Assembly (NCBI GenBank): GCA_003278345.1
Contig: QCFH01000011.1
Location: forward strand, 1 to 53,049
Length of the DNA: 53,049 nucleotides
Origin: Prochlorococcus sp. AG-363-C02
Lineage (GTDB): Bacteria; Cyanobacteriota; Cyanobacteriia; PCC-6307; Cyanobiaceae
Direction of reading: 5' to 3'
Position numbers and translations under genes: made by a program. This document shows, piece by piece, positions 37,013 to 53,049 of the stretch (its first letter is position 1; every line of letters begins with the position of its first letter). Under the pieces are notes generated by a model. That model saw nothing but the letters and a program-made list of their open reading frames with translations, made no database searches and was not told the DNA's origin.

Positions 37013-37018
37013 TTTGCT

Positions 37019-39124: not shown

Positions 39125-39157
39125 GTCAGATTCTTATGTCTAAAAGTACTTGTTAGA

Positions 39158-40411
39158 TTAGAACTTGAAAGTTGTTTTAACTACAGCTCCTAAATAATCG
39201 TCATGCCCAGTAGCTGCTCCATCACTTATATCCTGTGCACCGAAGATAGCAGGGGTGACAGTCATTCCATCATTAATCGAGACGTCATAATAGACTTCCC
39301 ATTGCAGACCAGACTTGGCTCCATCATCAGCACCGCCTCTTATTGAGCTAGCTATTGTTGGAGACATAACTGCTGCTGCAAGTTTGTTGCCATCTTGGAA
39401 TGCATCTTTCCAAGTTAAGCCAGCCATCCACATGCTCTGCTTTTCAGTTTCAGTACCAGTAGTTGTATTATCTACATCCATTTGATCTAGTCCGACCTGA
39501 ATAGAAGGAACAATTCCAGTTTCTTCTGGCTTCCAATAACCTCTTAGGCCTAATCCTCTAGAATCGCCTGTGGTAGTACCTCCTTGAGTACTTGAACTAT
39601 TTGCTGCCCAGTCTCTACAAGTAGTATCAGACCTGCATATGTTCTGAGCATAAGCTAGAGATACCTGCATCCTAGGAGAACCATAACCAACTTTAGACAG
39701 CCATTTCCCTTGTGACTCGTCAGTTAAAATTCCCCGAGTAGAATCGTCTCCACCGCTTGCAGCATAATTGGTAGCAACTTCCCATCTAAAATCAGATTTG
39801 CTTTCTGTAGGCTGAACCCAAGCAACGCCAAATCCAGGAGATGTACTAGAACCGTAAACAGGCCCGTTTCCACCTAAGTCAAAAGATTTTAGTAATGGCT
39901 TATAGATAGAAGGTTTACTAGCAACCATGGAGGAATTTTCAATCCTTGGACCAGCCCAAACTTTGAATTGCCCTACTGGGAATTCATACCAAATTTTGTC
40001 TACTTGGATAGCATTAGTACTATTATGAGCATCTTTAAGGTGAGTGTTATAAGCTGTGTTCTCCCATGGTGTATTAGCCATATCGCCTGCTTTTAAGCGT
40101 GTGTATAACTTATCTTCACCAGTAAAACTTGTTTTGATGTTGTACTGAACCACATAACCTGAAGTAAGCTTATCGCCCATATCAGCGCCAGCTACATCGT
40201 CATCTAGATTGATGGCACCAACGTTGAAAACAACTTTTCCGCTAAGTTTTGTAGTTGTCTCAAAATCGTCGAATTGACCAGCATAAAGGTCTTCGGCAAC
40301 AACATCTGAAGTTTTACCTTCATTAATGTTTAGCTCATTTGCAGTAGCAGCGACTGGTGCTATAAGACCAAGCGCAGCAGGTGCTATCAGCAATTGCTGA
40401 AAAAGTTTCAT
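39158..40411 (-). CDS. Outer-membrane porin (Prochlorococcus phosphate-cluster type)
   Basis: A 417-residue protein. Signal peptide MKLFQQLLIAPAALGLIAPV, cut near ATA-NEL. Many alternating beta strands follow (TTKLSGKVVFNVGAI, GQFKVWAGPRIENSS, TPAIFGAQDIS) and the C-terminus ends VVKTTFKF, with the terminal aromatic used for outer-membrane assembly. No SLH domain is seen between signal and barrel, unlike SomA/B. ATG 40,411 is chosen: GAGGA lies eight bases upstream. Porins stand beside pstS in known Prochlorococcus phosphate clusters, so it probably serves phosphate entry. Confidence 0.82.
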   Translation of the reverse strand: MKLFQQLLIAPAALGLIAPVAATANELNINEGKTSDVVAEDLYAGQFDDFETTTKLSGKVVFNVGAINLDDDVAGADMGDKLTSGYVVQYNIKTSFTGEDKLYTRLKAGDMANTPWENTAYNTHLKDAHNSTNAIQVDKIWYEFPVGQFKVWAGPRIENSSMVASKPSIYKPLLKSFDLGGNGPVYGSSTSPGFGVAWVQPTESKSDFRWEVATNYAASGGDDSTRGILTDESQGKWLSKVGYGSPRMQVSLAYAQNICRSDTTCRDWAANSSSTQGGTTTGDSRGLGLRGYWKPEETGIVPSIQVGLDQMDVDNTTTGTETEKQSMWMAGLTWKDAFQDGNKLAAAVMSPTIASSIRGGADDGAKSGLQWEVYYDVSINDGMTVTPAIFGAQDISDGAATGHDDYLGAVVKTTFKF

Positions 40412-40572
40412 TTTAGGATTCCTCACAGATAACCCAATAAGTGGGCAATTAAATAGTAAACAACTCTAGTCAAGTAAAAAGTATGTCTAAACACATGTGC
40501 TATGTATAATTTAATACCTCTAATAAAAAAAGAACTAATGACAAAACTCTCGAGATGTAGTAGAAAATAACT

Positions 40573-40690
40573 GCGACACTCCTCACACAATTGTCGCTAG
40601 GCGTTACTCTTTGAGGGCGCCTTTTTCATGCCTTTTTTGATTTATCTAGCTCTGTTGTTATAAGGAGTATTAGCAGCCAAACTGTCTGCA
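40573..40690 (-). repeat. Inverted partial copy of the element's left end
   Basis: Read leftward: the last ~13 codons of the TerS-like gene (encoding GLAANTPYNNRAR), then the AGGCG...CGCCT hairpin with T-run and the palindrome GCGACA-N13-TGTCGC. The same order occurs rightward at 29,495-29,799, except that the internal terminator and ~180 bases are missing here. Evidence of a second, degraded left end. Confidence 0.8.
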
Positions 40691-40771
40691 GATCCTTTAT
40701 GGTTAAAACTATTTGGTTGGGCTATTGAAAGACCTAAACCACTGCCTATACTTACGATAATTGTTCTGCAT

Positions 40772-40802
40772 AAAAAAAGAGAGTTGTAAAACTCTCTCTT
40801 AT
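40772..40802. terminator. Bidirectional hairpin terminator
   Basis: AGAGAGTT-GTAA-AACTCTCT, perfect 8-bp stem preceded by seven A. It lies just beyond the short leftward frame at 40.8 kb. Confidence 0.75.
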
Positions 40803-40814
40803 TAATTTGGTAAT

Positions 40815-40949
40815 TTAATCAAAAAACATTCCGTCTACTGAGAGCTTTCTTCTTGTCTCTGGTGAGCGATTTTGCTTCCAGTAGAAGATCATCCTAAAGG
40901 TAGGAGTTATTGGAAACAGTATCCAATCAATTAATGGTTTTTGTTTCAT
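40815..40949 (-). CDS. 44-residue basic hypothetical protein (tentative)
   Basis: MKQKPLIDWILFPITPTFRM then IFYWKQNRSPETRRKLSVDG. Hydrophobic first half, basic second half. It lies between two hairpin terminators, downstream of pstS. No ribosome binding site is visible; coding is uncertain. Confidence 0.35.
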   Translation of the reverse strand: MKQKPLIDWILFPITPTFRMIFYWKQNRSPETRRKLSVDGMFFD

Positions 40950-40960
40950 TGTTTTGATAA

Positions 40961-40988
40961 AAAGAGGAGTTACAAACCCCTCTTTTTA
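40961..40988. terminator. Terminator downstream of pstS
   Basis: AAAGAGGAGT-TACAA-ACCCCTCTTT with T-runs on both sides, one mismatch. It ends 32 bases after the pstS stop. Confidence 0.8.
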
Positions 40989-41019
40989 ATTTGGAAATTT
41001 AATAAAGCTTTTGCTTAAA

Positions 41020-42006
41020 TTACTTCCCAATCCTGTTGACAGCTGAACGAGATTTTTTAAGGATGTCTCCTTTAAGAGGAACGAAGCCTAAAGTTGGAGC
41101 TTTAGCTTGAGCCTTATCACTGAGAAGATAGTTTAGTGATTCTTGTATGGCTTTTGTTTTAGAGCCATTACCAGTCTCATAAGCAAGGATCCAAGTTAAA
41201 GTAGCAATTGGATATGCCCCTCTAGCTGTTGGATTCGGGTTTTTACCAGCTAAATTTCGATCCAGAGTGATACCATTTAGAGCCTTTGCACCAGCTTCTG
41301 TTGATGGCTTAAGAAATTCACCAGAAAGATTTTGCAAGGCAGCTGCTTGAATTACTCCTTTGATATATGACTGGTTTACATAACCTATCGTTCCTGGAGT
41401 GTTGCGAATTAATCCTGCAACTCCAGCATTTCCTTTGCCACCAATGCCAACAGGCCAATTAACTGATTTACCTGTTCCTAAAGTCCATGTATTAGAAAAA
41501 GCTTGCATTGAGTTAGTAAAAGCTTTCGTTGTGCCAGAACCGTCAGAACGGTGTGCCCAGGTTAGTTTGCCTGCAGGGCATCCAAGCTCACTCCAGTTTT
41601 GAATTTTTCCCATAGCAACACGAACTGCTTGCTCTTGGGTGAGCTTAAGGTCGCAATCGTAGTTGTAGCCAAAGGCAATGGTTCCTCCGACCATTGGAAT
41701 CTGAACAAGACCACGGGTTACTTTTGCAATGTCCTTTGCCTTCATTGGATCGTCAGAGGCTCCAAAGTCAACTGTTTCATCAATGAAAGCTTTACGCCCG
41801 GAACCAGAGCCAACTGCTTGATAGTTAACCCTAGGTCCATTCTTGTCAGCTAGATCAGCAAACCAACGTGTGTAGATCTTTGCTGGGAAAGAAGCACCTG
41901 CACCACTAAGACGTACATTGGAATTGTTTGATGAGCTGCAGGCTGAAATGCCAGCACCTAAAACAATCGCTGAGGAGAGAAGAAGAGCCTTCTTGGAGAA
42001 GGACAT
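41020..42006 (-). CDS. pstS: Phosphate ABC transporter substrate-binding protein
   Basis: A 328-residue lipoprotein-like binding protein. Signal MSFSKKALLLSSAIVLGAGI ends at a lipobox-like ISACSS. The phosphate-binding loops are GAGASFPAKIYTRWFADL, DFGASDDPMKAKD and AHRSDGSGTTKAFT, all typical of PstS. It binds phosphate for PstCAB, which is not in the window. The SphX/PstS split cannot be decided. Its promoter region holds ATCAA-N6-TTGAT, the same operator seen at arsR; no Pho box was recognised, and phoB/phoR are absent from the element. Confidence 0.93.
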   Translation of the reverse strand: MSFSKKALLLSSAIVLGAGISACSSSNNSNVRLSGAGASFPAKIYTRWFADLADKNGPRVNYQAVGSGSGRKAFIDETVDFGASDDPMKAKDIAKVTRGLVQIPMVGGTIAFGYNYDCDLKLTQEQAVRVAMGKIQNWSELGCPAGKLTWAHRSDGSGTTKAFTNSMQAFSNTWTLGTGKSVNWPVGIGGKGNAGVAGLIRNTPGTIGYVNQSYIKGVIQAAALQNLSGEFLKPSTEAGAKALNGITLDRNLAGKNPNPTARGAYPIATLTWILAYETGNGSKTKAIQESLNYLLSDKAQAKAPTLGFVPLKGDILKKSRSAVNRIGK

Positions 42007-42052
42007 ATTAAAAGCAAGAATTTCAATCTAACTCTAAACAATAAATATTGAT

Positions 42053-42074
42053 TTAATCAAGTATTCTTGATTAA
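42053..42074. promoter_or_regulatory. ArsR-type operator upstream of pstS
   Basis: TTAATCAAG-TATT-CTTGATTAA, a perfect 9+9 inverted repeat 47 bases before the pstS start codon. Its core ATCAA-N6-TTGAT equals the two repeats in the gap/arsR interval and the palindrome before ptrA. Confidence 0.75.
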
Positions 42075-42112
42075 TGTATTTCAAATACTGCCTTTTCAAG
42101 ACATACTGGCAG

Positions 42113-42307
42113 CTATTCAGAGGTACTTTCGTTCCGTATGTCCTCGAGTCTTATATCGCTTAACCCTTGTATTAATTGCCAAGCGCATTCGCCACTAACC
42201 ATGTGCCTGTCACAGAAATCCCTAACGACGCCATCAAGAATCACTGTAAGCTTCGCAGCTTGCTGTAAAAGCTCATCGGATTCTTTCCATTCCATAGAAC
42301 CATGCAT
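42113..42307 (-). CDS. 64-residue hypothetical protein of the phosphate/arsenate cluster
   Basis: Begins MHGSMEWKESDELLQQAAKL; a second in-frame ATG at 42,295 (MEWKESDE) is possible. A helical protein with two Cys (RDFCDRH, GECAWQ) and acidic tail. It is divergent from ptrA, and a perfect 28-bp palindrome with the ArsR-type core begins 11 bases upstream. Function unknown; similar small genes occur in Prochlorococcus phosphate clusters as I recall. Confidence 0.5.
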   Translation of the reverse strand: MHGSMEWKESDELLQQAAKLTVILDGVVRDFCDRHMVSGECAWQLIQGLSDIRLEDIRNESTSE

Positions 42308-42317
42308 AATGTGTATT

Positions 42318-42345
42318 CATCATATCAATAATTATTGATATGATG
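42318..42345. promoter_or_regulatory. Perfect 28-bp palindrome with ArsR-type core
   Basis: CATCATATCAATAA followed by its exact reverse complement. The centre is ATCAA-TAATTA-TTGAT. It lies between the divergent 64-residue gene and ptrA, so a bound regulator would block both. Confidence 0.8.
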
Positions 42346-42375
42346 ATATGGTCTTATAGAAATAGCCAGTAAAAA

Positions 42376-43026
42376 GTGGATTTAGCTAATGGCTCCGTTA
42401 TAGATAGGGCGGAGCTGGCTCTCCCTCAAAAGTCTCAAGAGTTTGGCTTATCGCAATTTTTGAGAACAAGCTTTGCTAGAACTAATATTGTTCGTATTTC
42501 CAAAGATAAACATATTCCTTGGATTAAAGGCAACATCTGGATTGTTGTTAATGGCTTTATTAAATTACGAGCGCTAAATGATAATGGTGAGGAATTAATT
42601 CTTGGTTTTCTTGGGCCAAACCATGTGTTTGGAGAGCCTATTTCTTTGATTGACGAATGCGACCCATATGCTTTGGCTGACTCTAAGCTACTTAGCTTGT
42701 CTGTTAAAGAAGCATATAAATCTCCATCTATGGCTATAGCGATTATGGAGTCGCTTTCATTACGCAATCGTTATACAGAATTGAATTTGGCTGTTTTAGT
42801 AGAAAAGAAGGTCGAAGAAAAGGTTAAAAGATTCCTTGAATTGATTGCTACTGAGTATGGCAAGCCATTGGATGGGGGATTGATGATTGAGTTCAAGATT
42901 ACTCACCAAGATATAGCTAATGCTATAGGTTCAACTCGTGTAACTGTTACAAGAATTTTGTCCAAACTACAGGAAGATTATTGGTTAACAAAAACAAATG
43001 GAGGTTTTTTTATTATTGCTTCTTAA
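42376..43026 (+). CDS. ptrA: CRP/FNR family regulator (PtrA-type)
   Basis: A 216-residue protein with an N-terminal cNMP-like beta barrel (IWIVVNGFIKLRALNDNGEE, LGFLGPNHVFGEPISLID) and C-terminal HTH (ITHQDIANAIGSTRVTVTRI). It resembles PtrA, the NtcA-like phosphate-cluster regulator of Prochlorococcus. The recognition helix has R-V-x-x-x-R as in NtcA, not R-E-x-x-x-R as in CRP, so it should prefer GTA-N8-TAC sites. The start is GTG 42,376; no Shine-Dalgarno sequence is obvious. Confidence 0.78.
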   Translation: MDLANGSVIDRAELALPQKSQEFGLSQFLRTSFARTNIVRISKDKHIPWIKGNIWIVVNGFIKLRALNDNGEELILGFLGPNHVFGEPISLIDECDPYALADSKLLSLSVKEAYKSPSMAIAIMESLSLRNRYTELNLAVLVEKKVEEKVKRFLELIATEYGKPLDGGLMIEFKITHQDIANAIGSTRVTVTRILSKLQEDYWLTKTNGGFFIIAS

Positions 43027-43110
43027 ATACATATTTGTTTTATCGAACGACTCTCTTTAGTAAATCTTGCGGTCACTTTCAATCACATAATGTCAGATTA
43101 AAAAGTAAAA

Positions 43111-44394
43111 TTAATCTTTTGGTATGAGAATTTTAGGCTTTTCAATAGCTATAGCACTTGAAACTGGTGGCAGTCGTAGACTTGTCAGAAATGAGATGAA
43201 TACAAATAAGCTTGAACACCATAAACAAACTTGCATTCCTACAGATGTATCTGACCCAAGCATAAATAGAACTCCAGACAAGAGGGTCCCAATCAGTCTC
43301 CCTGCAGCATTTGCCATGTAATAGAAGCCCACGTTTAGACTTACGTTTTCCTTATCTGTATAAGCAAGAACCATATATGAATGTATAGATGAGTTCATTG
43401 CAAAAATGAATCCAAATGTTATTAATCCAACTGTAATTGCTATTTCTGGATTGCTTTGTCGCCATAGTGCTATAGCTATTAGAGCTGGTATTGCAGTTAA
43501 GACAGCGCTCCAGAATTGAACAGAAGAAACTCCTGGACTAGTTTTATTTCCCCATAAATTTCTTAAAGAGGGTGCAAACGCTTGGATAAAGCCATAACCA
43601 ATAACCCACAATCCTAGGAACGCTCCAATCTCAGAAAAATTCCAATTTAGATACGTTTCAAGAAAAACAGGTAATGCTACGACGAACCATACGTCTCTTG
43701 CCCCAAAGAGAAAAAAACGTGCAAAAGAGAGGACATTGATCCCTTGAGATTTAGAAAATAAGTCTTTAAAGATTGGTTTGCTTTTCATCTTCCCTATATC
43801 TCCAGGTAGAATTAATGTCAATAAAAACGAAATACCTAAACCGATTGCCATAAATTCGACAGCTTGGTTAAAACCAAAACTGGTTAGCAAAAGTCCACCA
43901 AGAAAAAATCCAACTCCTTTGAGTGCATTTTTTGAACCAGTTAAGATAGCAACCCATTTGAATAATTGATTATTCCCACCATCTTCTTCAGAGGAATCTG
44001 GAACGACAGTTTTGATTGCACTTTTGGCACTCATCTTATTGAGATCTTTTGCTATACCACTAATCGCTTGAGCAACCATGACATAAATGACACTCAAAAG
44101 TTTCGACCAACTACTCGAAACTGGTATCAACATCAATAAGGCCACTATTTGTAAAAGAGTCCCGACCCATAGTGTTAGACGTAATCCATATCTTGCTCCA
44201 ATCCATCCACCATAGAGATTAGTGACGATGCCAAAGAACTCGTAAAAAAGGAATAAGAATGCGATTTCTAAGGTTGTATATCCAAGGCTATGAAAGTGAA
44301 AAATCACTAGCATCCTTAGAGCACCATCTGTAAGTGTGAATGCCCAATAGTTGGTCGTTACGATTCCATATTGCTGTAATGACGATAATCTCAT
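43111..44394 (-). CDS. arsJ: ArsJ organoarsenical efflux permease (MFS)
   Basis: A 427-residue protein with about twelve membrane helices. The N-terminal YWAFTLTDGALRMLVIFHFH, FLFLFYEFFGIVTNLYGGWI and GARYGL are the ArsJ signature. ArsJ exports 1-arseno-3-phosphoglycerate, the unstable product that GAPDH makes from arsenate, giving arsenate resistance. It lies 10 bases after the gap gene, the known pairing. Low-phosphate uptake systems bring in arsenate, which explains its presence with pstS. Confidence 0.9.
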   Translation of the reverse strand: MRLSSLQQYGIVTTNYWAFTLTDGALRMLVIFHFHSLGYTTLEIAFLFLFYEFFGIVTNLYGGWIGARYGLRLTLWVGTLLQIVALLMLIPVSSSWSKLLSVIYVMVAQAISGIAKDLNKMSAKSAIKTVVPDSSEEDGGNNQLFKWVAILTGSKNALKGVGFFLGGLLLTSFGFNQAVEFMAIGLGISFLLTLILPGDIGKMKSKPIFKDLFSKSQGINVLSFARFFLFGARDVWFVVALPVFLETYLNWNFSEIGAFLGLWVIGYGFIQAFAPSLRNLWGNKTSPGVSSVQFWSAVLTAIPALIAIALWRQSNPEIAITVGLITFGFIFAMNSSIHSYMVLAYTDKENVSLNVGFYYMANAAGRLIGTLLSGVLFMLGSDTSVGMQVCLWCSSLFVFISFLTSLRLPPVSSAIAIEKPKILIPKD

Positions 44395-44404
44395 GCTTGT
44401 ATTT

Positions 44405-45430
44405 TTATTCTTTTTCTAGCTTTATTACATGTGAAACGAGATCAGCCATTCGACAGCTATACCCCCATTCATTGTCATACCAAATATAGACTTTAAGTTG
44501 AGTTTTATTGATCACCATGGTTGATGGAGCATCAATGATTGAACTCCTCGAATCATTGACATAATCAATTGATACAAGGGGTTTTTCTTCGTAACCGAGT
44601 ATCCCTTTTAACGTTCCTTCTGAAGCTTCTTTGAACACATGATTGACTTCTTCTTGCGTTACCTCTTTCTCTAATTCAAATACAGCATCAGTTAAAGATC
44701 CATTGAGGAGAGGAACTCGAACTGCATGGCCATTTAATTTGCCTTGTAATTCTGGGAAAATCATCCCTATCGCTTTTGCTGAGCCTGTTGTTGTTGGTAT
44801 TAAACTTTGTGATCCACTTCTGGCTCTTCTTAAGTCTGGCTTAAATGAATCAACTATTACCTGTGTATTTGTTAGGTCATGGAGTGTTGTAATGCTTCCA
44901 TGCTTAATACCAAAGGCTCGATTAACGACCTTTACAACTGGAGCTAAACAATTAGTCGTGCAGGATGCAGCTGTTATTAAGTGATGTTTATTTGGTTTAT
45001 ATAAATCGTGGTTAATACCGTAGACGATATTCAGAGCATCCTCTCCCTGGATTTCACCTTTAACAGGACATGCAACGACAACTCTTTTCATCCCTAAAGT
45101 ATCGAAATAAGGATTTAATGTTTGAGGGGTTTTGAATTTTCCTGAGCATTCGAGAATTAGCTCTACCCCAGTCTTATCCCATGGAACTTTTGTGAAATCG
45201 CTTTCTTGAGAAAAAGATATTGAGTGCCCTTCTATAGATAGTTTGTTCTGGTCGGAACTTATTGATTTATCCCATCGGCCGTGAACAGAATCAAACTCAA
45301 GTAAATGTGCAGCTCCGCTTGCATCACCAAATGGGTCATTGATATGCGTAATCTCGATATTTTCTCTATCCCAGAGAGCTCTAAGAACAAGTCGTCCTAT
45401 ACGACCAAACCCATTAATACCAATGCGCAT
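44405..45430 (-). CDS. gap: Glyceraldehyde-3-phosphate dehydrogenase (ArsJ-linked)
   Basis: A 341-residue GAPDH. NAD site [18 protein letters not shown], active site [14 protein letters not shown] with the catalytic Cys, and C-terminal [14 protein letters not shown]. Five codons further upstream also fit the frame (45,445), but MRIGINGFG is the normal start. In the ars context it catalyses arsenolysis of glyceraldehyde-3-phosphate. It shares its promoter region with the divergent arsR, which holds two ArsR-type operators. Confidence 0.93.
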
Positions 45431-45465
45431 AACACTCCGCATCACAAAACGAATGCATAGTATAC

Positions 45466-45500
45466 ATCAAGAATAGTTGATCTATCAATCTCTGTTGATA
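45466..45500. promoter_or_regulatory. Two tandem ArsR-type operators between gap and arsR
   Basis: ATCAA-GAATAG-TTGAT at 45,466-45,481 and TATCAA-TCTCTG-TTGATA at 45,483-45,500. Both match ATCAA-N6-TTGAT and are spaced 18 bp centre to centre. They lie between divergent gap-arsJ and arsR and should repress both. Confidence 0.85.
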
Positions 45501-45551
45501 GTTATGATAATTCTTGTAAAATTAGAACATTACTCTGGGACTGATTAATTA

Positions 45552-45863
45552 ATGCGTTCAGCTGTCGCCAATGAAAAAGCAATAGATTTACTAAAAGCAT
45601 TAGCAGAACCTATCAGATTGGAAATAATTGAATCCTTGTCCAATGGAGAAAAATGTGTTTGTGACCTTATGCAAGAAACAGATCTAGCGCAATCCAAAAT
45701 TTCCTTTCACCTCAAGGTTCTTAAAGAGGCTGGGGTTATCACAGATAGGCAAAGTGGGCGCTGGGTTTATTACCAACTCGATATAAGAGCATTAAAGTCT
45801 TTGCAGAATTGGATCAAAAAACTAAGGAAAGGGTGCCTGAATGAAGCTTCTTCTTGTGAATAA
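45552..45863 (+). CDS. arsR: ArsR family arsenic-responsive repressor
   Basis: A 103-residue winged-helix protein. KALAEPIRLEIIESLSNGEK leads to the metal-binding CVCDLMQETDLAQSKISFHL (CVC motif in the DNA-binding helix), then VLKEAGVITDRQSGRWVYY. Further Cys lie at the C-terminus (GCLNEASSCE). As(III) binding should release it from DNA. The ATCAA-N6-TTGAT sites in this region are the natural targets. Confidence 0.93.
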   Translation: MRSAVANEKAIDLLKALAEPIRLEIIESLSNGEKCVCDLMQETDLAQSKISFHLKVLKEAGVITDRQSGRWVYYQLDIRALKSLQNWIKKLRKGCLNEASSCE

Positions 45864-46058
45864 ATCAAAAAGCATTCCTTAGAAGCTTCCATCCACACAT
45901 TACAATATCGCCGAGATCCCCTGGCATCACAAGAACCTAACTACTGGCTAATGAAAAGTGAACCTGTAAGCATATAGATGGATTAGAAAGAATACAAGAA
46001 ATCCCTTACGAGTAAAATACTCGCAATCTATTCATGCAAGTTCCCAAGTAAAAAACAA

Positions 46059-46436
46059 ATGAGTGAAGAAATTACAGCGGAGTATGCCAAAAAAGCTCAG
46101 AAAGATGCTGAATGGGCTTACAGCAATGCAATGGAAAAGTTTTACTACTCAATGTTGGAGGTTGTTTTCTTAAGAATCAAAAGTCATCTCAGTCCACAGG
46201 GGTTAAAGAAAGTCATAGAGATGGATGAGAAAAGGAACAACAATGAAAACCTTGGCGTTGAATTTAGCCAGAAAACTTGGGCAATTTTAGCTGAATCTTG
46301 GGCAGGAGCAGAAGGTCTAGCTATGACAAAAATCGCTGATCTGTATGGACTAGAGGTAGCTGATTTAGATATATCTAAAATTGAGAGACTTAATGAAAAA
46401 CCTGACACTCCAAAATGTGAGCCAACTAATAGATAA
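46059..46436 (+). CDS. Hypothetical protein of the element
   Basis: A 125-residue helical protein starting MSEEITAEYAKKAQKDAEWA. Tyr- and Trp-rich helices (EKFYYSMLEVVFLRIKSHLS, KTWAILAESWAGAEGLAMTK) but no catalytic motif or membrane helix. It lies alone between arsR and the integrase gene, converging with the latter. No family recognised. Confidence 0.55.
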   Translation: MSEEITAEYAKKAQKDAEWAYSNAMEKFYYSMLEVVFLRIKSHLSPQGLKKVIEMDEKRNNNENLGVEFSQKTWAILAESWAGAEGLAMTKIADLYGLEVADLDISKIERLNEKPDTPKCEPTNR

Positions 46437-46554
46437 GAGAAGAAAGAATATCCAGACAGTCCTGATTTATAGACTGAAGACTTGAGCTGGATCAGCTAGA
46501 AAGTCATTGGCTGTGCTTTCCATTTATTTAGCCTTCAAGAGTTTCATATCTTAA

Positions 46555-47802
46555 TTATGCCAAAGACCTCTCTCTTGCAGTCTTAAAAGCATTGGTAGTA
46601 GTTGATTCTTTTGAATAAGGATAATTTCTATGGTGCGCTTCTATTGAATGACCCATGCTTAGAGATGCACTGCCAGAATCAATCAATCTGAGATGGCAAC
46701 GAAGCGCATAGTAATGCCTAAATGAATAGCAGGTTATATTTGCTCCTTGAGTCTTCTGCATTAAAGCTTTTAAGTCTTTCCAGCTTTGTCGACGTTTCAA
46801 ATAAGTACCAGCTGCTTCACCATCAACTTTCTCAGGCAGAGGCAGAAGATTTCCTCTAAATCTTTCCAATAGGTTCCATTTGATTTCCTTCCCATCTCGA
46901 TCAATTAACGGTAGAGGCTCAATTCGTCTTGGGGCTGTTGCCCCATTACCAGCCTTTTTTATATAAGTGCAATGCCAATAATGTTCTTTCTCTATTCGAT
47001 CAAATCGAACTTGAATGTAATTAATTTCTATTGGTCTTAGACCTAGCTCTGCCATTAAACAGAAACAGTTAAACCATCTAGTAGCGGCTTCAGCATCAAC
47101 TTTATAAGGACTATCAGTTGGCAGTGTTTCGAGGAAATCGAGTATTTGCTGATCACTTTCAAACGGTTCTGCTTTCTGGCTGACGATGTCTTTTGGCTTT
47201 GCTTTTCCTATATGTTGACTTAAATCTGCTGGGGGAGTCCATATGTCTGAAATACCTACTCTACTTACTGCATGATCTAAAAATTGTTTGATTGCTCTAG
47301 TTCGATGCTTACGAGATACACTTCCAGGTTTCCAATCTTTTACGCATATATCGATTAAGTCTTCCGGGTTGGCAGGCGGATTTTTTTGGCTCATTATTTC
47401 TACAACCATTTCACATGGTGGAAGGTATTGCTTGTTGAAAGTCGCTTCACTAATGGCAGTACCGAAATTAATTTTTTGATCTTTAAAGCTTTTCAGGATT
47501 TTTGACCAATCTTTTGGTTTCTTAGGTGCTTTACAAGCAGCCAGATCAGCTGCAGCTCTCAACGAATGACCTTTTTTGAGATGAACAAAGATATTTCTTA
47601 CTCGTGCATATGCATCCCCCCAGTTTTCTTCAGTCCATTTGAAAGGCAAGATGACAGATTCGGATTTATGACCTTTTCTTCTTCGACGGAGTTCGACCAT
47701 TCCGCGCTTGGATTTATTCGTGGTTAGGCCACTCTCAGGACTTAGATCCTTAATTTGTTTTCTTGCTATAGGTTCCCAGTCGTTATTCAAAAGAGCCAAC
47801 AA
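46555..47802 (-). CDS. Tyrosine recombinase (integrase) of the element
   Basis: A 415-residue protein. The C-terminal catalytic domain has box I ELGLRPIEINYIQ with the first Arg, CYSFRHYYALRCHLR for the HxxR region (Tyr instead of the usual first His), and LSMGHSIEAHHRNYPY with the His and the nucleophilic Tyr. The N-terminal half includes a SAM-like core-binding domain (TRAIKQFLDHAVSR). It is a TTG start at 47,802; the frame stays open upstream. The arm-type repeat overlaps the start. It belongs to the recombinases that integrate tycheposons at tRNA genes. Confidence 0.88.
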   Translation of the reverse strand: MLALLNNDWEPIARKQIKDLSPESGLTTNKSKRGMVELRRRRKGHKSESVILPFKWTEENWGDAYARVRNIFVHLKKGHSLRAAADLAACKAPKKPKDWSKILKSFKDQKINFGTAISEATFNKQYLPPCEMVVEIMSQKNPPANPEDLIDICVKDWKPGSVSRKHRTRAIKQFLDHAVSRVGISDIWTPPADLSQHIGKAKPKDIVSQKAEPFESDQQILDFLETLPTDSPYKVDAEAATRWFNCFCLMAELGLRPIEINYIQVRFDRIEKEHYWHCTYIKKAGNGATAPRRIEPLPLIDRDGKEIKWNLLERFRGNLLPLPEKVDGEAAGTYLKRRQSWKDLKALMQKTQGANITCYSFRHYYALRCHLRLIDSGSASLSMGHSIEAHHRNYPYSKESTTTNAFKTARERSLA

Positions 47803-47815
47803 ATAGCCAACAAAT
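47793..47815 (+). repeat. Candidate arm-type recombinase sites, right end
   Basis: GAGCCAACAAATAGCCAACAAAT, the left-end pair with one base changed and in the same orientation. It overlaps the first codons of the integrase gene, so bound integrase could also repress its own gene. Confidence 0.65.
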
Positions 47816-47903
47816 ACAGCATAATCTGACCAGACAGAAAATGTCAGACCCTGTCATATCAATTGGTATGGCTGCTGACCAAGTGCCTTAAAGGACTAAA
47901 AAA

Positions 47904-47955
47904 GTGCTTTGGGAGCACTAGGTCGCAGGTTCGAATCCTGTCGCCCCGACTAGGA
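47904..47955 (+). repeat. attR: right copy of the 52-bp attachment repeat
   Basis: Identical to 28,988-29,039. It holds only the 3' half of tRNA-Pro and cannot fold into a full tRNA. It defines the right boundary of the element. Confidence 0.95.
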
Positions 47956-48647: not shown

Positions 48648-48864
48648 TTAATAGCGGGTTGGCTCTGGTACTTAGCAGGGGTGCTAGGTGGTCAGCCAGA
48701 TCTAGCCCGTTTCCTTTCACGCTTCGATGGCTGTCATCTCCATTGAGTAAGTCGTGTCTCTGCCGCTTTCAGTCACCGTCCTGATGTAAGTTGCATAGTT
48801 TTTCACTAAATAGACAGCAGCTAATAATTCAACTATGAAGAAAGTAGTTGCTACAAGCAGTATC

Positions 48865-49062
48865 ATGTCAGAAGAAAAAATCAACCAAGAACTATCTGAT
48901 GACGAACTAAAGAATGTAGCTGGAGGCTTTTCGGAATTATCGGATTACACCACAATCGGTGAGCAGTTTAAGGGCAGGAAAAAACAACCAGGGAAAGGTT
49001 CAATTTCGGAAGATAAAAACAATGAACAGAATTATACTGATTCTGGAAGAATTACCTATTAA
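48865..49062 (+). CDS. Double-glycine leader peptide, unit 1
   Basis: A 65-residue precursor from ATG 48,865 (open to 48,835; chosen because two other units start identically). The leader MSEEKINQELSDDELKNV ends AGG, a C39-type double-glycine cleavage site. The core is FSELSDYTTIGEQFKGRKKQ followed by a polar Asn/Ser-rich tail. No Cys, so it is not a lanthipeptide. The core block GEQFKGRKKQ recurs as GEAFKGRKKQ in unit 2 directly downstream. Confidence 0.7.
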   Translation: MSEEKINQELSDDELKNVAGGFSELSDYTTIGEQFKGRKKQPGKGSISEDKNNEQNYTDSGRITY

Positions 49063-49116
49063 TGAGTTCAGATTTGCATTGCTTTCTGCAATCCACTAAC
49101 AATTTGCTATTAAAAA

Positions 49117-49329
49117 ATGTCAGAAGAAAAAATCAACCAAGAACTATCAGATAACGAACTAAAGGATGTAGATGGGGGTCATAACTGGAAAGTACAGGAG
49201 GGGGAGGCTTTTAAGGGCCGTAAGAAACAACTTCAAAAAAACTCAATTAATAAGAAGAAGTTTCAATCTTTAAAAGAAAAAAAAGCACAGATTGGTTCTG
49301 AACACTGGTCAGAACCTGCAGCAGATTAA
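49117..49329 (+). CDS. Double-glycine leader peptide, unit 2
   Basis: A 70-residue precursor with leader MSEEKINQELSDNELKDV then DGG. The core HNWKVQEGEAFKGRKKQLQK is basic and related to unit 1. It lies 54 bases after unit 1; the leader DNA is almost identical in the two, so they arose by duplication. No terminator is obvious downstream. Confidence 0.7.
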   Translation: MSEEKINQELSDNELKDVDGGHNWKVQEGEAFKGRKKQLQKNSINKKKFQSLKEKKAQIGSEHWSEPAAD

Positions 49330-49447
49330 CCAACAGGTTCTTCCAAAGCTTTCCCTGTGGGTCGTCCGAAGGCTCGAAAATCAGCTAGTGACAGCGATCT
49401 CAGCTAGGCACATTTAGGAGCATTTAACAAAGAAGAAGGAGACTTAG

Positions 49448-49807
49448 ATGGAAGCAGTCAACATCACAGAAGCAAGCTCCAGACTTGGGTATAAGAGCCG
49501 TACAGTGCTTAATAGATTTATCTCTAATGGTTGGTTAAATGACTTTTTAGTCGTTAATAAATTAGGAAAAAAGCGTTTAAAGATGGAAGGGTTGAAAGAG
49601 CATGTAGAGAGTCTTATTCAACCAAGATCGACAAGTATTCAGTTCAGGCAAAAACCAAAGATTGATATAGATACTTGGTTAAGGATGGGTGAAGCGGCAA
49701 ATGCTATCTGCCAAGAAATGGGATGGGTCATTAGTAGTCCTAAGACTGCTGCCGAATGGTCATTAATTTATGAAGCTATGGAGAAAGCAAGAGAAGGCAA
49801 TCAGTAA
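49448..49807 (+). CDS. Small HTH protein (excisionase-like)
   Basis: A 119-residue protein preceded by GAAGGAGA, a strong ribosome binding site. ITEASSRLGYKSRTVLNRFI is a MerR/excisionase-type HTH; the C-terminal part (WLRMGEAANAICQEMGWVIS) is a second helical region. A shorter relative lies at 50,497. Such genes accompany integrases in this kind of element, and the remnant of an integrase lies between the two. It may still be functional. Confidence 0.55.
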   Translation: MEAVNITEASSRLGYKSRTVLNRFISNGWLNDFLVVNKLGKKRLKMEGLKEHVESLIQPRSTSIQFRQKPKIDIDTWLRMGEAANAICQEMGWVISSPKTAAEWSLIYEAMEKAREGNQ

Positions 49808-49818
49808 GATACGCCATC

Positions 49819-49843
49819 AAAAAACCCCGCCGAAGCAGGGCTT
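49819..49843 (-). terminator. Terminator of peptide unit 3
   Basis: Leftward: GCCCTGC-TTCG-GCGGGGT then a run of T. UUCG tetraloop. Similar hairpins follow units 7, 8 and 9. Confidence 0.8.
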
Positions 49844-49888
49844 TATTACTAGCTCAAGGCTTGGAAATACTAACCAATAGGTCAAATA

Positions 49889-50119
49889 TCAAAACCGAAC
49901 CGACCCGTCGCCGAATTGGTCCAATATCAAAACCGCGTCGACCCTTCGAGCTACAGGTCCAATATCAAAACCGCGTCTCGAATTGCTAATTGGTCCAACA
50001 TCAAAACCACGTGGTCTGTAATTAGGGTGAATGATTTGTTTAAAACCATCAAGTTTGGCAAAAACACCCCCACCGGAAAATGCAGCTAATTGGTCAAGAG
50101 TGAGTTCAGTGGTGTTCAT
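49889..50119 (-). CDS. Double-glycine leader peptide with tandem RGFD(I/V)GP repeats, unit 3
   Basis: A 76-residue precursor from ATG 50,119. Leader MNTTELTLDQLAAF ends SGGG; core VFAKLDGFKQIIHPNYRPRG then FDVGPISNSRRGFDIGPVAR. The DNA holds four repeats of the word read as CAAAACC on the plus strand at spacings 36, 38 and 38, so only units one and two are in frame and the later two are shifted. The upstream in-frame ATG (50,173) lies in the shared 5' leader and is rejected: in two sister units that stretch is out of frame. Own promoter and terminator. Confidence 0.65.
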   Translation of the reverse strand: MNTTELTLDQLAAFSGGGVFAKLDGFKQIIHPNYRPRGFDVGPISNSRRGFDIGPVARRVDAVLILDQFGDGSVRF

Positions 50120-50230
50120 TTTATTAGAGAGTTGTGAGGGATTAATCCCTTCGATGTATTTACTATCTCTCAAACAAAAGAAAACTATATTGATCTAGTT
50201 CAATGACAACTGTGAGGTTGGTCACAAACG
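50120..50230 (-). promoter_or_regulatory. Shared promoter/5' leader of peptide unit 3 with CRP-type site
   Basis: TGTGA-GGTTGG-TCACA at 50,211-50,226, then 21 bases to a leftward -10-like TATAGT (50,184-50,189). Centre to hexamer is 29 bases, i.e. -41.5 if the hexamer is the -10. The 5' leader holds GAAGGGATT-AATCCCTC, a palindrome, about 30 bases before ATG. Confidence 0.75.
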
Positions 50231-50236
50231 TAAAAA

Positions 50237-50422
50237 AGTGATCAGCAAATCTTAGATTTCCTTGAAACGCTGCCAACCGATGGTTCTTATAAAGTTGATG
50301 CTGAAGCTGCTACTAATTGGTTTAACTGCTTTTGCTTGATGGGCGAGCTAGGTCTACGACCAATTGAAGTGAATCACTTACAGGTTTTATTCGATTCAAT
50401 TAAGAAAGAAGATTATTATATA
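50237..50422 (+). pseudogene. Remnant of a tyrosine recombinase
   Basis: In one frame it reads SDQQILDFLETLPTDGSYKV, DAEAATNWFNCFCLMGELGL, RPIEVNHLQVLFDSIKKEDY, which matches residues ~215-275 of the intact integrase at 46.6-47.8 kb almost residue for residue, but on the opposite strand. A stop lies just upstream and the rest of the gene is missing. It shows a former related element. Confidence 0.92.
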
Positions 50423-50496
50423 AAAAGGCTACTAATAGCGTATGAAAGGATCTCATCCTTATGGGATGAAGGGTTAGTGTTCATTAGTTTGTAGAA

Positions 50497-50733
50497 ATGC
50501 ATTTAGTGCTGTTGGAGAGCCAACAAGCTCTGCCTATTGGATATTACAGTCGATCAACTCTTTATAAAGTTAGGCGTGATGGCTGGTTAAAGCCTTATGA
50601 AGTCAGTATTGAAGGCAAAACTTACCCTGACATGCACCCAAGAGGTCACTCTCAATTAGATGTATACCTCAAAGGAATCTTGCAATGGAGGCCAAGTAAT
50701 CCGATTAGCAAGATGAGCTATGTGGACGTGTAA
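50497..50733 (+). CDS. Short HTH-like protein (excisionase relative, perhaps decayed)
   Basis: A 78-residue frame. LPIGYYSRSTLYKVRRDGWL is similar to YKSRTVLNRFISNGWLNDFL in the 119-residue HTH protein at 49,448, and KTYPDMHPRGHSQLDVYLKG forms a wing-like region. It follows the integrase remnant at 75 bases. It may be a truncated or intact small DNA-binding protein. Confidence 0.45.
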   Translation: MHLVLLESQQALPIGYYSRSTLYKVRRDGWLKPYEVSIEGKTYPDMHPRGHSQLDVYLKGILQWRPSNPISKMSYVDV

Positions 50734-50823
50734 GTTTATTGTCTACAAGTTTGAGAGGTTGACGCTAGATAAAAATCGAGCCCTCAGACGACCCATATAA
50801 AAGGCTCTAAGAAGAACCTATTT

Positions 50824-51009
50824 TCAACTTTCTAAAAGAGGAGCTATGATCCACCTTTCACCACCTCTTGCGTATACGCCAAATGCATTTTTGGCTCTAT
50901 AGATAATGTAAGCCTTTCCCCATTGGTTATATTCTCCAATTGTAGAAATGATTACGGTTGATTCAATTTGAAAAGAATCAGGATCTCTAAGTAATTTTTT
51001 TAATTGACT
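50824..51009 (-). pseudogene. Fragment of a small conserved protein (C-terminal domain)
   Basis: An open frame without start reads LRDPDSFQIESTVIISTIGE, YNQWGKAYIIYRAKNAFGVY and ARGGERWIIAP before its stop at 50,824. DPDSFQ and YRAKNAFG are the marks of a small exported-protein domain common in bacteria. Upstream the frame runs into the terminator of peptide unit 4, so the N-terminus was lost when the peptide unit arrived or rearranged. Confidence 0.55.
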
Positions 51010-51036
51010 AAAAAAGGAGCCTTTTAAGACTCCTTC
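51010..51036 (-). terminator. Terminator of peptide unit 4
   Basis: Leftward: AAGGAG...CTCCTT stem (AAGGAGTCTTAAAAGGCTCC) followed by TTTTTT. Differs in sequence from the UUCG-type hairpins of other units. Confidence 0.75.
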
Positions 51037-51061
51037 TTAATTAAATCTACCTTTGTGAAAG

Positions 51062-51265
51062 TTATATCTTATTCTCTACGTTAACATTCTCTTTTTTATC
51101 TTCTTTTATATCTAAATAAGGAGGTAAAACTATCGGTAAGATCACACTAGAAGGCAATACAATGCATCCACCTAGCGTAACCCCGCCATTAATGCTTTCA
51201 AGCTCATGATTTTCGAGTTCTTGATCAAGAAATGCTGTGTTATTCTGAAGTTCAGGATTTTTCAT
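51062..51265 (-). CDS. Double-glycine leader peptide, unit 4
   Basis: A 67-residue precursor: leader MKNPELQNNTAFLDQELENH then ELESINGG; core VTLGGCIVLPSSVILPIVLP with PYLDIKEDKKENVNVENKI. The core is hydrophobic and Pro-rich with one Cys, then a charged tail. It has the shared CRP-type promoter and its own terminator. It may also be read from a promoter divergent to unit 5. Confidence 0.7.
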   Translation of the reverse strand: MKNPELQNNTAFLDQELENHELESINGGVTLGGCIVLPSSVILPIVLPPYLDIKEDKKENVNVENKI

Positions 51266-51377
51266 TGTTTTTAGATGGTTGTGAGGGTTGAATCCCTTCG
51301 ATGTACTTACTATCTCTCAAATAAAAGAAGACTGTAATGATCTGCTTCAATGACAACTGTGAGGTTGTTCACAAGTT
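51266..51377 (-). promoter_or_regulatory. Shared promoter/5' leader of peptide unit 4 with CRP-type site
   Basis: TGTGA-GGTTGT-TCACA at 51,358-51,373, followed leftward by TACAGT in the same place as in unit 3. The ~110-bp block matches those before units 3, 7 and 8. Confidence 0.75.
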
Positions 51378-51453
51378 ATATTTCAAGTTTTTACTTCTCT
51401 CAGAGTACAACAATAACCACTGCTAGAAAGAAAAAAGTATAGAGAGGAATCTC

Positions 51454-51624
51454 TTGCCAGAAGAAGAACTAAATCAAGAGCTCTCAAGCGATGAGTTAAA
51501 AGATGCTGTGGGCGGTATGACGGCACTCGGAGGTCTTGCGGCATTATTTAGGCAAAGAGGGAATTTTAGAAAAAATACTCAAGTTCCTAATTTTATACCC
51601 GATGGTAGGAATGACGGAAAATAA
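51454..51624 (+). CDS. Double-glycine leader peptide, unit 5 (TTG start)
   Basis: A 56-residue precursor read from TTG 51,454 after AGAGAGGAAT. Leader (M)PEEELNQELSSDELKDA then VGG; core MTALGGLAALFRQRGNFRKN and TQVPNFIPDGRNDGK. It is the only unit with an Ala/Leu-rich then basic core. It is divergent from unit 4 and the CRP-type site lies ~90 bases upstream. Missed by ATG-based gene calling. Confidence 0.6.
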   Translation: MPEEELNQELSSDELKDAVGGMTALGGLAALFRQRGNFRKNTQVPNFIPDGRNDGK

Positions 51625-51800
51625 ATCCGATCGTAATTTGATTCTCTAATTTGTTTTTAGAAAAAAGAGAAGGTTGCTAATTTTTAGTTGTTAGTGAAAG
51701 TCACCCTTTTATCCCCTAGGGACGAGGTGATTACTTGTGCTTGCGAGTTGGTCGATCAGCAAGAAGGGGAAAGTTGTAAGCGTTTCATTTCACATGCCTT

Positions 51801-52034
51801 TTAAATATTTGGATCTATAGGTAATCCTAAGGCTGGTCTGGAGCTAGCGTCATCAGACCCTATCCTCTTTTTAACTTCTCCTTCTTCCGCGCTAAGGACT
51901 GCACCACCAGGTACAAAAGGTGCGGCTAAATTATTGGTTTTTATTTGACCAACACGGATTCTGGTACTTGCGCCCCCAGCAACATCTTTCAGTTCGTCAT
52001 CAGATAGTTCTTGGTTGATTTTTTCTTCTGACAT
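51801..52034 (-). CDS. Double-glycine leader peptide, unit 6
   Basis: A 77-residue precursor. Leader MSEEKINQELSDDELKDV then AGG, same as units 1 and 2 nearly base for base; core ASTRIRVGQIKTNNLAAPFV followed by PGGAVLSAEEGEVKKRIGSD. A second GG (PGG) lies inside the core. Lacks the shared CRP-type promoter. The leader identity with units 1-2, which lie on the other strand 3 kb away, indicates recent duplication and inversion. Confidence 0.7.
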   Translation of the reverse strand: MSEEKINQELSDDELKDVAGGASTRIRVGQIKTNNLAAPFVPGGAVLSAEEGEVKKRIGSDDASSRPALGLPIDPNI

Positions 52035-52095
52035 GTTTGTTCTCAGATTGACATCTTATATATAACAGAGATATGACGTGGCAAAAGAGATCGTT

Positions 52096-52121
52096 AAAAA
52101 AGCCCTGCCGAAGCAAGGCTT
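52096..52121 (-). terminator. Terminator of peptide unit 7
   Basis: AGCCCTGC-CGAA-GCAAGGCT (plus strand), i.e. a leftward UUCG-loop hairpin with T-run. One mismatch. Confidence 0.8.
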
Positions 52122-52194
52122 GATTTCGTAAACATTATAATAAAAGCCTTTAATGGCTATCTAGAAAAAGATTTTCCCTTAGAAGCTCCAAACC

Positions 52195-52380
52195 TTATGT
52201 TTGTTGCTGCTTTTGCAACCAACTTACATTTCTACCTTGCTTGAAACTAGTACTTAGCAAAGATACTTGATTCGACTTTTGATCAAAATGAGTGCCAGAT
52301 TTGAAGCCATCAAATTTAACAAAAATAGCTCCGCCATTAACTTCAGATAGTTGATCAAGAGTTAGTTCGTTCTTGTTCAT
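52195..52380 (-). CDS. Double-glycine leader peptide, unit 7
   Basis: A 61-residue precursor from ATG 52,380. Leader MNKNELTLDQLSEV then NGG; core AIFVKFDGFKSGTHFDQKSN and a Ser/Gln-rich end. Leader and first core block (xFxKxDGFK) match unit 3, but the RGFDIGP repeats are absent. The longer frame to 52,464 runs through the shared 5' leader and is rejected for the same reason as in unit 3. Confidence 0.65.
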   Translation of the reverse strand: MNKNELTLDQLSEVNGGAIFVKFDGFKSGTHFDQKSNQVSLLSTSFKQGRNVSWLQKQQQT

Positions 52381-52491
52381 TTTTTTAGATAGTTGTGAGG
52401 GGTGAATCCCTTCGATGTACTTACTATCTCTCAAATAAAAGAAGACTGTAATGATCAGCTTCAATGGTAACTGTGAAGTTAGTCACAAGCT
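52381..52491 (-). promoter_or_regulatory. Shared promoter/5' leader of peptide unit 7 with CRP-type site
   Basis: TGTGA-AGTTAG-TCACA at 52,472-52,487, then 21 bases to TACAGT leftward. Nearly identical to the unit 4 copy. Confidence 0.75.
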
Positions 52492-52504
52492 GAATACACC
52501 ATAA

Positions 52505-52530
52505 AGAAGCCCCACTTAAGTAGGGCTTCT
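52505..52530 (-). terminator. Terminator of peptide unit 8
   Basis: AGAAGCCC-CACTTAAGTA-GGGCTTCT, an 8-bp stem whose loop itself contains ACTTAAGT. T-rich on the leftward side (TTTATGG), weaker run. Confidence 0.65.
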
Positions 52531-52557
52531 GAAGTGAAATAAAGTTTGTTATTCCTA

Positions 52558-52746
52558 TTAATCATCATCCGTTACACTTTTTGCAAGTTTAGATCCGACA
52601 TAAGCAATACCACCAATTGCCAAAATTGGTGCAGTATAAGGACTACTAGCTAAAGCTATCGCGTAATTCCAAAAGCCTCCATTAATAGTTGCTAATTCAT
52701 CCACGTTTAACTCTTGATCTTGGATGTGAGTGTTTTGTTCAGTCAT
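52558..52746 (-). CDS. Double-glycine leader peptide, unit 8 (bacteriocin-like core)
   Basis: A 62-residue precursor: leader MTEQNTHIQDQELNVDELAT then INGG; core FWNYAIALASSPYTAPILAI, GGIAYVGSKLAKSVTDDD. The core is hydrophobic with Gly/Ala, like class II bacteriocins, with an acidic C-terminus. No Cys. Own shared-type promoter and terminator. Confidence 0.7.
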   Translation of the reverse strand: MTEQNTHIQDQELNVDELATINGGFWNYAIALASSPYTAPILAIGGIAYVGSKLAKSVTDDD

Positions 52747-52859
52747 TGGTTTGAGATAGTTGTGAGGGTTGAATCCCTTCGATGTATTTACTATCTCTCT
52801 AATCCAAGGTTGTTGTATTGATCTAATTCAATGGCAACTGTGAAGTTAATCACAAGCTG
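52747..52859 (-). promoter_or_regulatory. Shared promoter/5' leader of peptide unit 8 with CRP-type site
   Basis: TGTGA-AGTTAA-TCACA at 52,839-52,854, 21 bases to TACAAC leftward. The 5' leader matches the other copies, with a small divergent patch downstream of the -10. Confidence 0.72.
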
Positions 52860-52870
52860 AATATGCCATC

Positions 52871-52895
52871 AAAAAGCCCCGCCGAAGCAGGGCTT
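52871..52895 (-). terminator. Terminator of peptide unit 9
   Basis: AAGCCCCGC-CGAA-GCAGGGCTT on the plus strand; leftward UUCG-loop hairpin followed by T-run. Nearly the same as the unit 3 terminator. Confidence 0.8.
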
Positions 52896-52923
52896 GATTT
52901 ACCAGGTCATCGCTGGAGGAATA

Positions 52924-53049
52924 CTAACCAATTGCTTTAATATCAAAACCACGTCTACCAACAGGTCCAATATGAAAACCACGTCTTCCAGAGCTATAGA
53001 TAGATAAAGGTAGGCGTTCAGTACATGTTTCTCCATTTGGTCCTTGAGC
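52924..53049 (-). CDS. Peptide with RGF(D/H)I repeats, unit 9, C-terminal part (start outside window)
   Basis: The visible frame reads AQGPNGETCTERLPLSIYSS, GRRGFHIGPVGRRGFDIKAI and G before TAG 52,926. The GRRGF(H/D)I unit occurs twice, ten residues apart, in frame, and is the same motif as in unit 3. The leader lies beyond the edge. One Cys (ETCTE). Terminator follows. Confidence 0.6.
   Translation of the reverse strand, partial: AQGPNGETCTERLPLSIYSSGRRGFHIGPVGRRGFDIKAIG

Follow-up and report, generated by a model that had tools for sequence, protein, structure and literature searches.

Why would a streamlined picocyanobacterium carry a row of small peptide genes with double-glycine (GG) leaders and, in the same stretch of DNA, no enzyme to process them? 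The question is raised by contig QCFH01000011.1 (C11; 53,049 nucleotides, hereafter the window) of the draft genome of Prochlorococcus sp. AG-363-C02 (1.42 Mb, 77% complete), at whose right end an earlier, sequence-only reading had noticed eight leader genes and a ninth frame. This array is real, with eight complete genes and one truncated gene. Indeed, a leader profile (A3), built from 20 leaders and run against 79 genomes in total, matched 21 places in this genome (eight on C11, ten on contig C23 and three on contig C3, one of the three being degenerate); 12 of its 13 congeners gave no match at all. In our view the array is probably the output arm of a peptide-secretion island controlled by cyclic AMP (cAMP), and the orphan-looking peptides appear to be part of a regulated secretion system. 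The first reading had overlooked the CRP-box promoters, the cAMP machinery carried along with them and the repeats of a tRNA end.

CRP boxes upstream of the peptide genes

The draft genome holds 20 complete GG-type genes, all on C11, C23 and C3, of which 11 have type B or C leaders and nine have type A leaders; the degenerate frame C3:3544-3663 was left out of this count. Genes are labelled u in the window, c on C23, d on C3 and g in the congener G010, and a suffix A, B or C gives the leader type. Two of the counted leaders, c1999 here and g1B in G010, end in GS rather than GG. G010 is the only other genome of the genus with leader-profile matches (five), and among the 79 genomes several matches were found only in the genome under study, in G010 and in G041, which belongs to another genus. 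Single matches came from G050, which lies outside the family, and from G038, where the match (E 0.006, within an 876-aa frame) was treated as chance.

The window genes u3, u4, u7 and u8 have about 146 nt of upstream DNA in common, and each is preceded by a perfect copy of TGTGA-N6-TCACA (Table 1). This is the reported cyanobacterial CRP consensus, with a TAN3T -10 element about 22 bp downstream (PMC2633013; this and the other published studies are cited here from parts of their text). Up to one mismatch was allowed in a box unless it is called perfect. A box lies 91-95 nt before the start of ten of the 11 own B/C genes (eight perfect) and 91-96 nt before the start of all five B/C genes of G010 (four perfect). 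Seven sites with at most one mismatch were observed in the window against 1.62 expected, and none of 100 shuffles reached seven. Perfect boxes number ten in the whole draft genome, eight at GG genes and two (C10:33840 and C22:9261) inside open frames, and the reversed pattern occurs twice. G010 has five perfect boxes, four of them at GG genes; the other twelve congeners have zero to four each, and zero to two of the reversed pattern.

A search of the genus with a 148-nt conserved promoter and 5' untranslated region (5'UTR) module, taken from upstream of u7, found 11 places in the own genome, one of them degenerate and every one upstream of a GG gene; G010 has two. The own copies are 69-93% identical, and therefore not independent, and in G010 the module is 74% identical. 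In G041, eight perfect boxes were counted and seven of them precede GG genes, at 92-106 nt in five cases and at 156 nt in two, of which one sits between a divergent pair of such genes. No GG gene accompanies the eighth. This is a biased count, as the stretches (114.5 kb) were selected for holding leader or box matches. They contain 26 GG genes, three doubtful rows of 29 (L141 6978, L140 572 and L196 752) having been left out. When the box was combined with CATTGAA (up to two mismatches) and sought in 21 genomes of the family, G041 gave five sites, G015, G036 and G038 one apiece and the other 17 none, with zero or one per genome in the reversed control. A box before GG genes recurs in three genera.

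Other signals around these promoters were considered as well. A conserved RNA hairpin in the 5'UTR is not claimed, since the consensus fold is a weak one, at -4.1 kcal/mol, and its outer stem does not hold in G010. A single 26-bp hairpin (about 1650-1705 on C23; -52.6 kcal/mol) was observed in the 5'UTR of the C23 GG gene 1375-1647, the other 14 copies ranging from -7.4 to -15.8 kcal/mol. Below threshold, Rfam gave a partial tRNA and chance-level small RNA matches. A sigma-70 promoter scan, with five sites against 11.3 in shuffles, was not used, and terminator-like sites number ten against 3.8.

The exporter and the cyclic AMP machinery

The sequence-only reading had found no processing enzyme and had supposed that the peptides are secreted with a C39 transporter encoded elsewhere. 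No such enzyme lies in the window because the contig ends there, so that the absence is an artefact, and the supposed transporter is supported by what C23 encodes. The only C39 match in the draft genome is on C23, in a peptidase-ABC protein that meets NHLM_micro_ABC1 (TIGR03796; 987.3 bits, cut-off 853.3), and the adjoining HlyD gene meets NHLM_micro_HlyD (TIGR03794; 215.7 bits, cut-off 156.2). The second ABC of this NHLP exporter (TIGR03797, cut-off 709.4) is split by a contig gap, with its C-terminal part at the C23 end (profile positions 420-686, 441.9 bits) and its N-terminal part at the C3 end (ending at position 228, 69.1 bits). In G041 the two pieces align in the same reading frame of the same strand, 582 nt apart, which makes it probable that only a short gap separates C23 from C3. 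Moreover, C11 and the far end of C23 both lie within GG arrays and GG genes are confined to C11, C23 and C3, from which we infer that C11 joins C23.

The named relatives of the exporter come from Prochlorococcus and Synechococcus. Among them are the Prochlorococcus single cells AG-410-A05 (L059), AG-363-K07 (L060) and AG-412-I05 (L067), with 64% identity. Gly/Pro-rich frames with GG leaders were seen near the exporter in these three (L059 8062-8391, L060 12168-12782 and L067 13173-13715); the leader profile gave E values of 0.63, 1.4 and 2.7e-5, respectively, a clear match only in L067. The earlier suggestion to look for transporters and modification enzymes was thus borne out for the C39 exporter; no modification enzyme was found among 11 non-precursor C23 and C3 proteins scanned, a subset of the frames.

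C23 also encodes a Crp with cyclic-nucleotide (cNMP)-binding and HTH domains, a CHASE2-cyclase, a ShlB-type TpsB, a CHAT protein and a phosphodiesterase that resembles the cAMP-specific one (101.5 bits, below the cut-off of 225), and C3 carries cyc_nuc_ocin, a cNMP-binding export partner (325.2 bits, cut-off 161.05). Alignments connect the cyclase with solved adenylate cyclases and the Crp with proteins that bind cyclic nucleotides, including PKG and CRP. The ligand of the C23 Crp would be cAMP, but with PKG as well as CRP among these proteins it may also be cGMP. The cyclase and this Crp occur together in two of the 14 genomes of the genus, exactly the two with GG arrays (chance of this pairing 1/91, kinship uncorrected), and in seven of 49 genomes of the family, including all three with arrays (0.0019, again uncorrected for kinship and with several genomes incomplete). 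In G041 a single contig holds, within about 28 kb, the cNMP partner, both ABCs, HlyD, the cyclase, the CHAT protein, TpsB, the Crp and a second cNMP gene. In G010 the Crp is beside GG genes and a CHAT-cyclase pair is on another contig.

A circuit can be proposed from these parts. The membrane CHASE2 adenylate cyclase would make cAMP upon an external cue, and the CpdA-like phosphodiesterase would clear it. A -10 hexamer starting 21 nt past the box would place the box centre near -41.5, as at class II CRP promoters. Crp bound to cAMP would occupy the box before the type B and C genes and recruit RNA polymerase, probably in the class II manner at about -41.5. The leaders would then dock at the C39 domain of the exporter (peptidase-ABC, HlyD and second ABC) and be cut after GG, and a mixture of hydrophobic bacteriocin-like, basic and RGFDIGP-repeat peptides would be released. 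The cNMP-binding export partner may couple cAMP to export. The most likely use of the peptides would be antagonism or signalling toward neighbouring cells.

It might be argued that the boxes are common only through recent promoter duplication, or that another Crp/Fnr protein uses them, and we regard this as rather unlikely. The identity among the own module copies and the partial fit at the -10 position speak for it, as does a Crp/Fnr-like gene, named by eye, in the window itself (42376-43026). However, G010 has kept perfect boxes even though its module has diverged, boxes also stand before GG genes in G041, and it is the C23 type of Crp that tracks the arrays within the genus.

Several observations weigh against the proposed circuit and island. 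Of the ten own boxed genes, only u3, u4, u7, c1999 and c5286 have TAN3T at +21, the other five reading TACAAC or TACAGC, and none of the five boxed genes of G010 has it. Type A genes (nine own, one in G010) have no box at the 91-96 nt spacing, so that the box recurs in one subset of the genes and not throughout; the box of a neighbour is 80-81 nt away from u5 and c2189A, a site with one mismatch is present at 50 nt in c708A, and no common box was recognized by eye in ten type A upstream stretches. Among the B/C genes, c4927B has no box, and its start lies 152 nt past the end of a boxed gene. In the selected G041 stretches, a perfect box was seen within 160 nt of only eight of the 26 GG genes, which leaves 18 without one. 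The exporter genes on C3 and C23 lack an upstream box even when one mismatch is allowed. Among 11 loci of named exporter-bearing relatives (L058-L068) there is no perfect box; sites with one mismatch number six and fall in L059, L061 and L063. Moreover, G018, G022, G042 and G047 have Crp and cyclase with no array match, and G010 (assembly 81% complete) has no NHLP-type C39 match, only a weak one in a 984-aa protein (24.8 bits). The ends of C11, C23 and C3 have no stretch of at least 18 nt in common within 300 nt, and conservation of the peptide cores is weak.

Leaders, cores and other possible roles of the peptides

The features of the window are given in Table 1. Six of the nine frames point leftward and three rightward, where the sequence-only reading had given a five-strong leftward set and the others as rightward; five leftward and three rightward genes are complete, and the sixth leftward frame is the truncated u9. 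There are three leader types, A (u1, u2, u5 and u6), B (u3 and u7) and C (u4 and u8). As had been noticed, the leaders of u1, u2 and u6 are almost identical in DNA (89-92%) and u3 and u7 have a common one, together with upstream DNA of 80% identity over 189 nt. The cores, described at first as unlike one another, are diverse and yet partly alike, with FKGRKKQ common to u1 and u2 and RGFDIGP-like repeats common to u3 and u9. The tail of u9, RRGFDIKAIG, is also found in the precursors C23:3225 and C3:4466. In u3 the 38-nt units encoding RGFDIGP (49876-50012) slip frame, so that the last copies lie in another frame or past the stop. WLQKQQQ near the tail is common to u7 and the precursor L138 8185-8403, of two species, which hints at an exchange of core segments. 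By the CCRG-2 model (NF033456, cut-off 24; CCRG stands for co-culture-responsive gene) one of the 20 own precursors passes (u7), with c3225 (23.4 bits), c4927 (23.0), c5286 (22.9) and d4466 (22.9) close below, and two of the five G010 precursors scanned pass (g3A left out). When viral contigs were searched with the C23:3225 precursor, none of the 12 pattern matches could be confirmed.

Table 1. Peptide genes, CRP boxes, promoter module and tRNA-Pro-associated features of the window
Feature	Position	Strand	Remarks
u1, GG precursor, type A leader	48865-49062	+	Leader profile 43.9 bits; bacteriocin_sig model 16.8 bits (cut-off 15.7)
u2, GG precursor, type A leader; FKGRKKQ in core as in u1	49117-49329	+	Leader profile 40.4 bits
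u3, GG precursor, type B leader; RGFDIGP repeats leaving frame at 3' end	49889-50119	-	CCRG-2 model 20.3 bits (cut-off 24)
u4, GG precursor, type C leader, hydrophobic core	51062-51265	-	Cerein-7B model 18.6 bits (cut-off 21.5)
u5, GG precursor, type A-like leader, TTG start, divergent from u4	51454-51624	+	NCBIfam: no match
u6, GG precursor, type A leader	51801-52034	-	Leader profile 45.1 bits
u7, GG precursor, type B leader	52195-52380	-	CCRG-2 model NF033456 24.5 bits (cut-off 24)
u8, GG precursor, type C leader, hydrophobic core	52558-52746	-	Class IIb lactobin A/cerein 7B model 26.2 bits (cut-off 21.5)
u9, C-terminal part of precursor, cut by contig end; leader off contig	52924-53049	-	RGFDIGP-like repeats
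Perfect CRP box of u3	50211-50226	-	TATAGT starting 21 nt past box
Perfect CRP box of u4	51358-51373	-	TACAGT at +21; also 80 nt before divergent u5
Perfect CRP box of u7	52472-52487	-	TACAGT at +21
Perfect CRP box of u8	52839-52854	-	TACAAC at +21, not TAN3T
Conserved promoter/5'UTR module, 148 nt, query copy	52381-52528	-	Other window copies 50120-50227, 51268-51375, 52750-52895
tRNA-Pro 3'-end copy, 52 nt, exact, att-like, adjoining array	47904-47955	+	Original 28988-29039
Integrase-like gene beside repeat	46555-47802	-	Weak: PHROG 216 integrase E=7.8e-4; XerD model E=0.11; Pfam no match
Integrase remnant inside array	50237-50419	+	80% aa identity to residues 216-276

The near-identity of type A leaders before differing cores had suggested combinatorial substrates as in the prochlorosins, in which one leader serves many cores and a promiscuous modifying enzyme is encoded elsewhere. 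Some leader models named for ribosomally synthesized and post-translationally modified peptides do match, mostly below cut-off, and the CCRG-2 peptides have been called structurally related to prochlorosins (PMC8120280). However, leader type partly tracks core type: mean core hydropathy is above zero in three of four type C genes and below zero in all nine own type A genes. The leaders are short and not Nif11-like, as had been said, the best Nif11 score in the window being 15.5 bits against a cut-off of 32.3. The cores proved nearly Cys-free (one Cys in the eight complete window cores), and no LanC-like domain (PF05147 only) was found in this 77%-complete genome, in agreement with the view that lanthionine chemistry does not apply. 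A prochlorosin-like system is disfavoured by the leader model, the LanC search and this sorting of cores, as well as by the modification-enzyme scan of C23 and C3, and we consider it very unlikely.

The peptides could instead be surface or matrix peptides that promote aggregation, like EbfG1-4 with PteB in Synechococcus elongatus. GG peptides with a C39 exporter are a known cyanobacterial arrangement (PMC9981879), and the ShlB-type TpsB and the CHAT surface-type protein are encoded in the same stretch as the exporter. On the other hand, two of the 20 own precursors, u8 and c1647, pass the class IIb lactobin A/cerein 7B bacteriocin model (TIGR03949, cut-off 21.5) with 26.2 bits each, c1999 failing with 16.1. 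A role in aggregation is therefore a possibility, albeit an unlikely one, and we prefer peptides that act on neighbouring cells.

Conservation of the frames in relatives and the ratio of non-synonymous to synonymous change (dN/dS) had been put forward as checks of the array. GG genes do recur in G010 and G041, and the leaders are constrained: the type B leaders, pooled from 11 genes, differ by 0.53 per synonymous and 0.21 per non-synonymous site. The cores gave a less clear answer, with dN/dS of 0.50, 0.91 and 0.89 in the closest full-length homologues (c3225, d4466 and g2B) and of 0.33, 0.36 and 0.49 in three looser pairs with high dS and poor alignment. A block of 46 residues common with G010 has five or seven residue changes, and its differences have no third-codon-position bias. 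These values fit leaders that are kept and cores that change fast; selection data alone are no proof of translation. Could the array be a decaying, non-functional set of duplicates? The degenerate copy on C3, the u3 repeats out of frame, the integrase remnant and the near-neutral cores of the closest homologues would agree with this, whereas the constraint on the B leaders, the few changes in the 46-residue block and the spacing of the boxes, preserved in G010 and more loosely in G041, argue for genes in use. Decay is thus highly improbable, and a regulated, secreted set of peptides remains the reading that we prefer.

A possible tRNA-Pro island and known systems

A tRNA-Pro gene lies at 28960-29034, and an exact copy of its 3' end adjoins the array. 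A third copy at C3:7503-7548 (45 of 46 nt, same orientation) fits the order C11, C23, C3, the contigs being unjoined, and the G010 contig that bears the cyclase has a tRNA-Pro-end copy as well (92.5% over 40 nt). The stretch of about 19 kb between the exact 52-nt repeats of the window (28988-47955) holds AAA_25 and T5orf172 genes and below-threshold Prim-Pol and DnaJ matches. Together these repeats suggest two tandem tRNA-Pro elements, the second of which carries the peptides; the recombinase assignment is weak. By eye, phosphate-binding-protein-like, porin-like, Crp/Fnr-like, transporter, GAPDH-like and ArsR-like genes were also seen in 28988-47955, and a Cyano-1 RNA match above threshold lies at 29585-29650, just past the tRNA-Pro.

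Whether all of this forms one transferable, tRNA-Pro-borne island with the whole circuit (sensor cyclase, cAMP breakdown, Crp, about 20 peptide genes of which about half are boxed, and exporter) is evenly balanced in our judgement. If so, a streamlined picocyanobacterium would gain an inducible peptide arsenal, or language, that is rare among its genus, and cAMP signalling in some streamlined cells would be tied to peptide secretion and move as an island.

The leader families and the exporter are already known, as CCRG-2, cerein-7B-like and NHLP. CCRG-2 peptides are small secreted peptides of Prochlorococcus and Synechococcus with the same kind of short leader ending in GG, in whose description, in the text available, CRP control is not mentioned (PMC8120280). 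The exporter resembles the three-gene NHLP/NHLM type of peptidase-ABC, HlyD and second ABC (PMC2887384), although the precursors here have no match to the NHLP models and none above cut-off to the Nif11 models. GG precursors with C39 exporters were also mined as cyanobacterial bacteriocin clusters in 2011, several of them from Prochlorococcus genomes, with no mention of cAMP or CRP in the accessible parts of that study (PMC3140520). EbfG1-4 and PteB of S. elongatus likewise combine GG peptides with a C39 transporter but differ in having four peptides in one operon, under an extracellular inhibitor (PMC9981879).

On the side of regulation and mobility, the island module Syn_GI122 of Synechococcus has CHAT, cyclase and CRP, and the available portion of its description does not mention GG peptides or exporter (PMC7522525). 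Tycheposons, as tRNA-bounded cargo islands bearing a recombinase (PMC10872708), would be similar, whereas here the recombinase match is weak. An identical box was reported for the predicted cyanobacterial CRP regulons, in a survey where crp was found in 12 of 29 genomes, including MIT9313 and MIT9303, with MIT9211 and CCMP1375 outside the 12, and where the term bacteriocin is absent from the text seen (PMC2633013). No report of CRP control of GG peptides was found in the literature searched, which covered few subscription papers, and the conserved CRP box before the B/C-type GG genes is what is new here.

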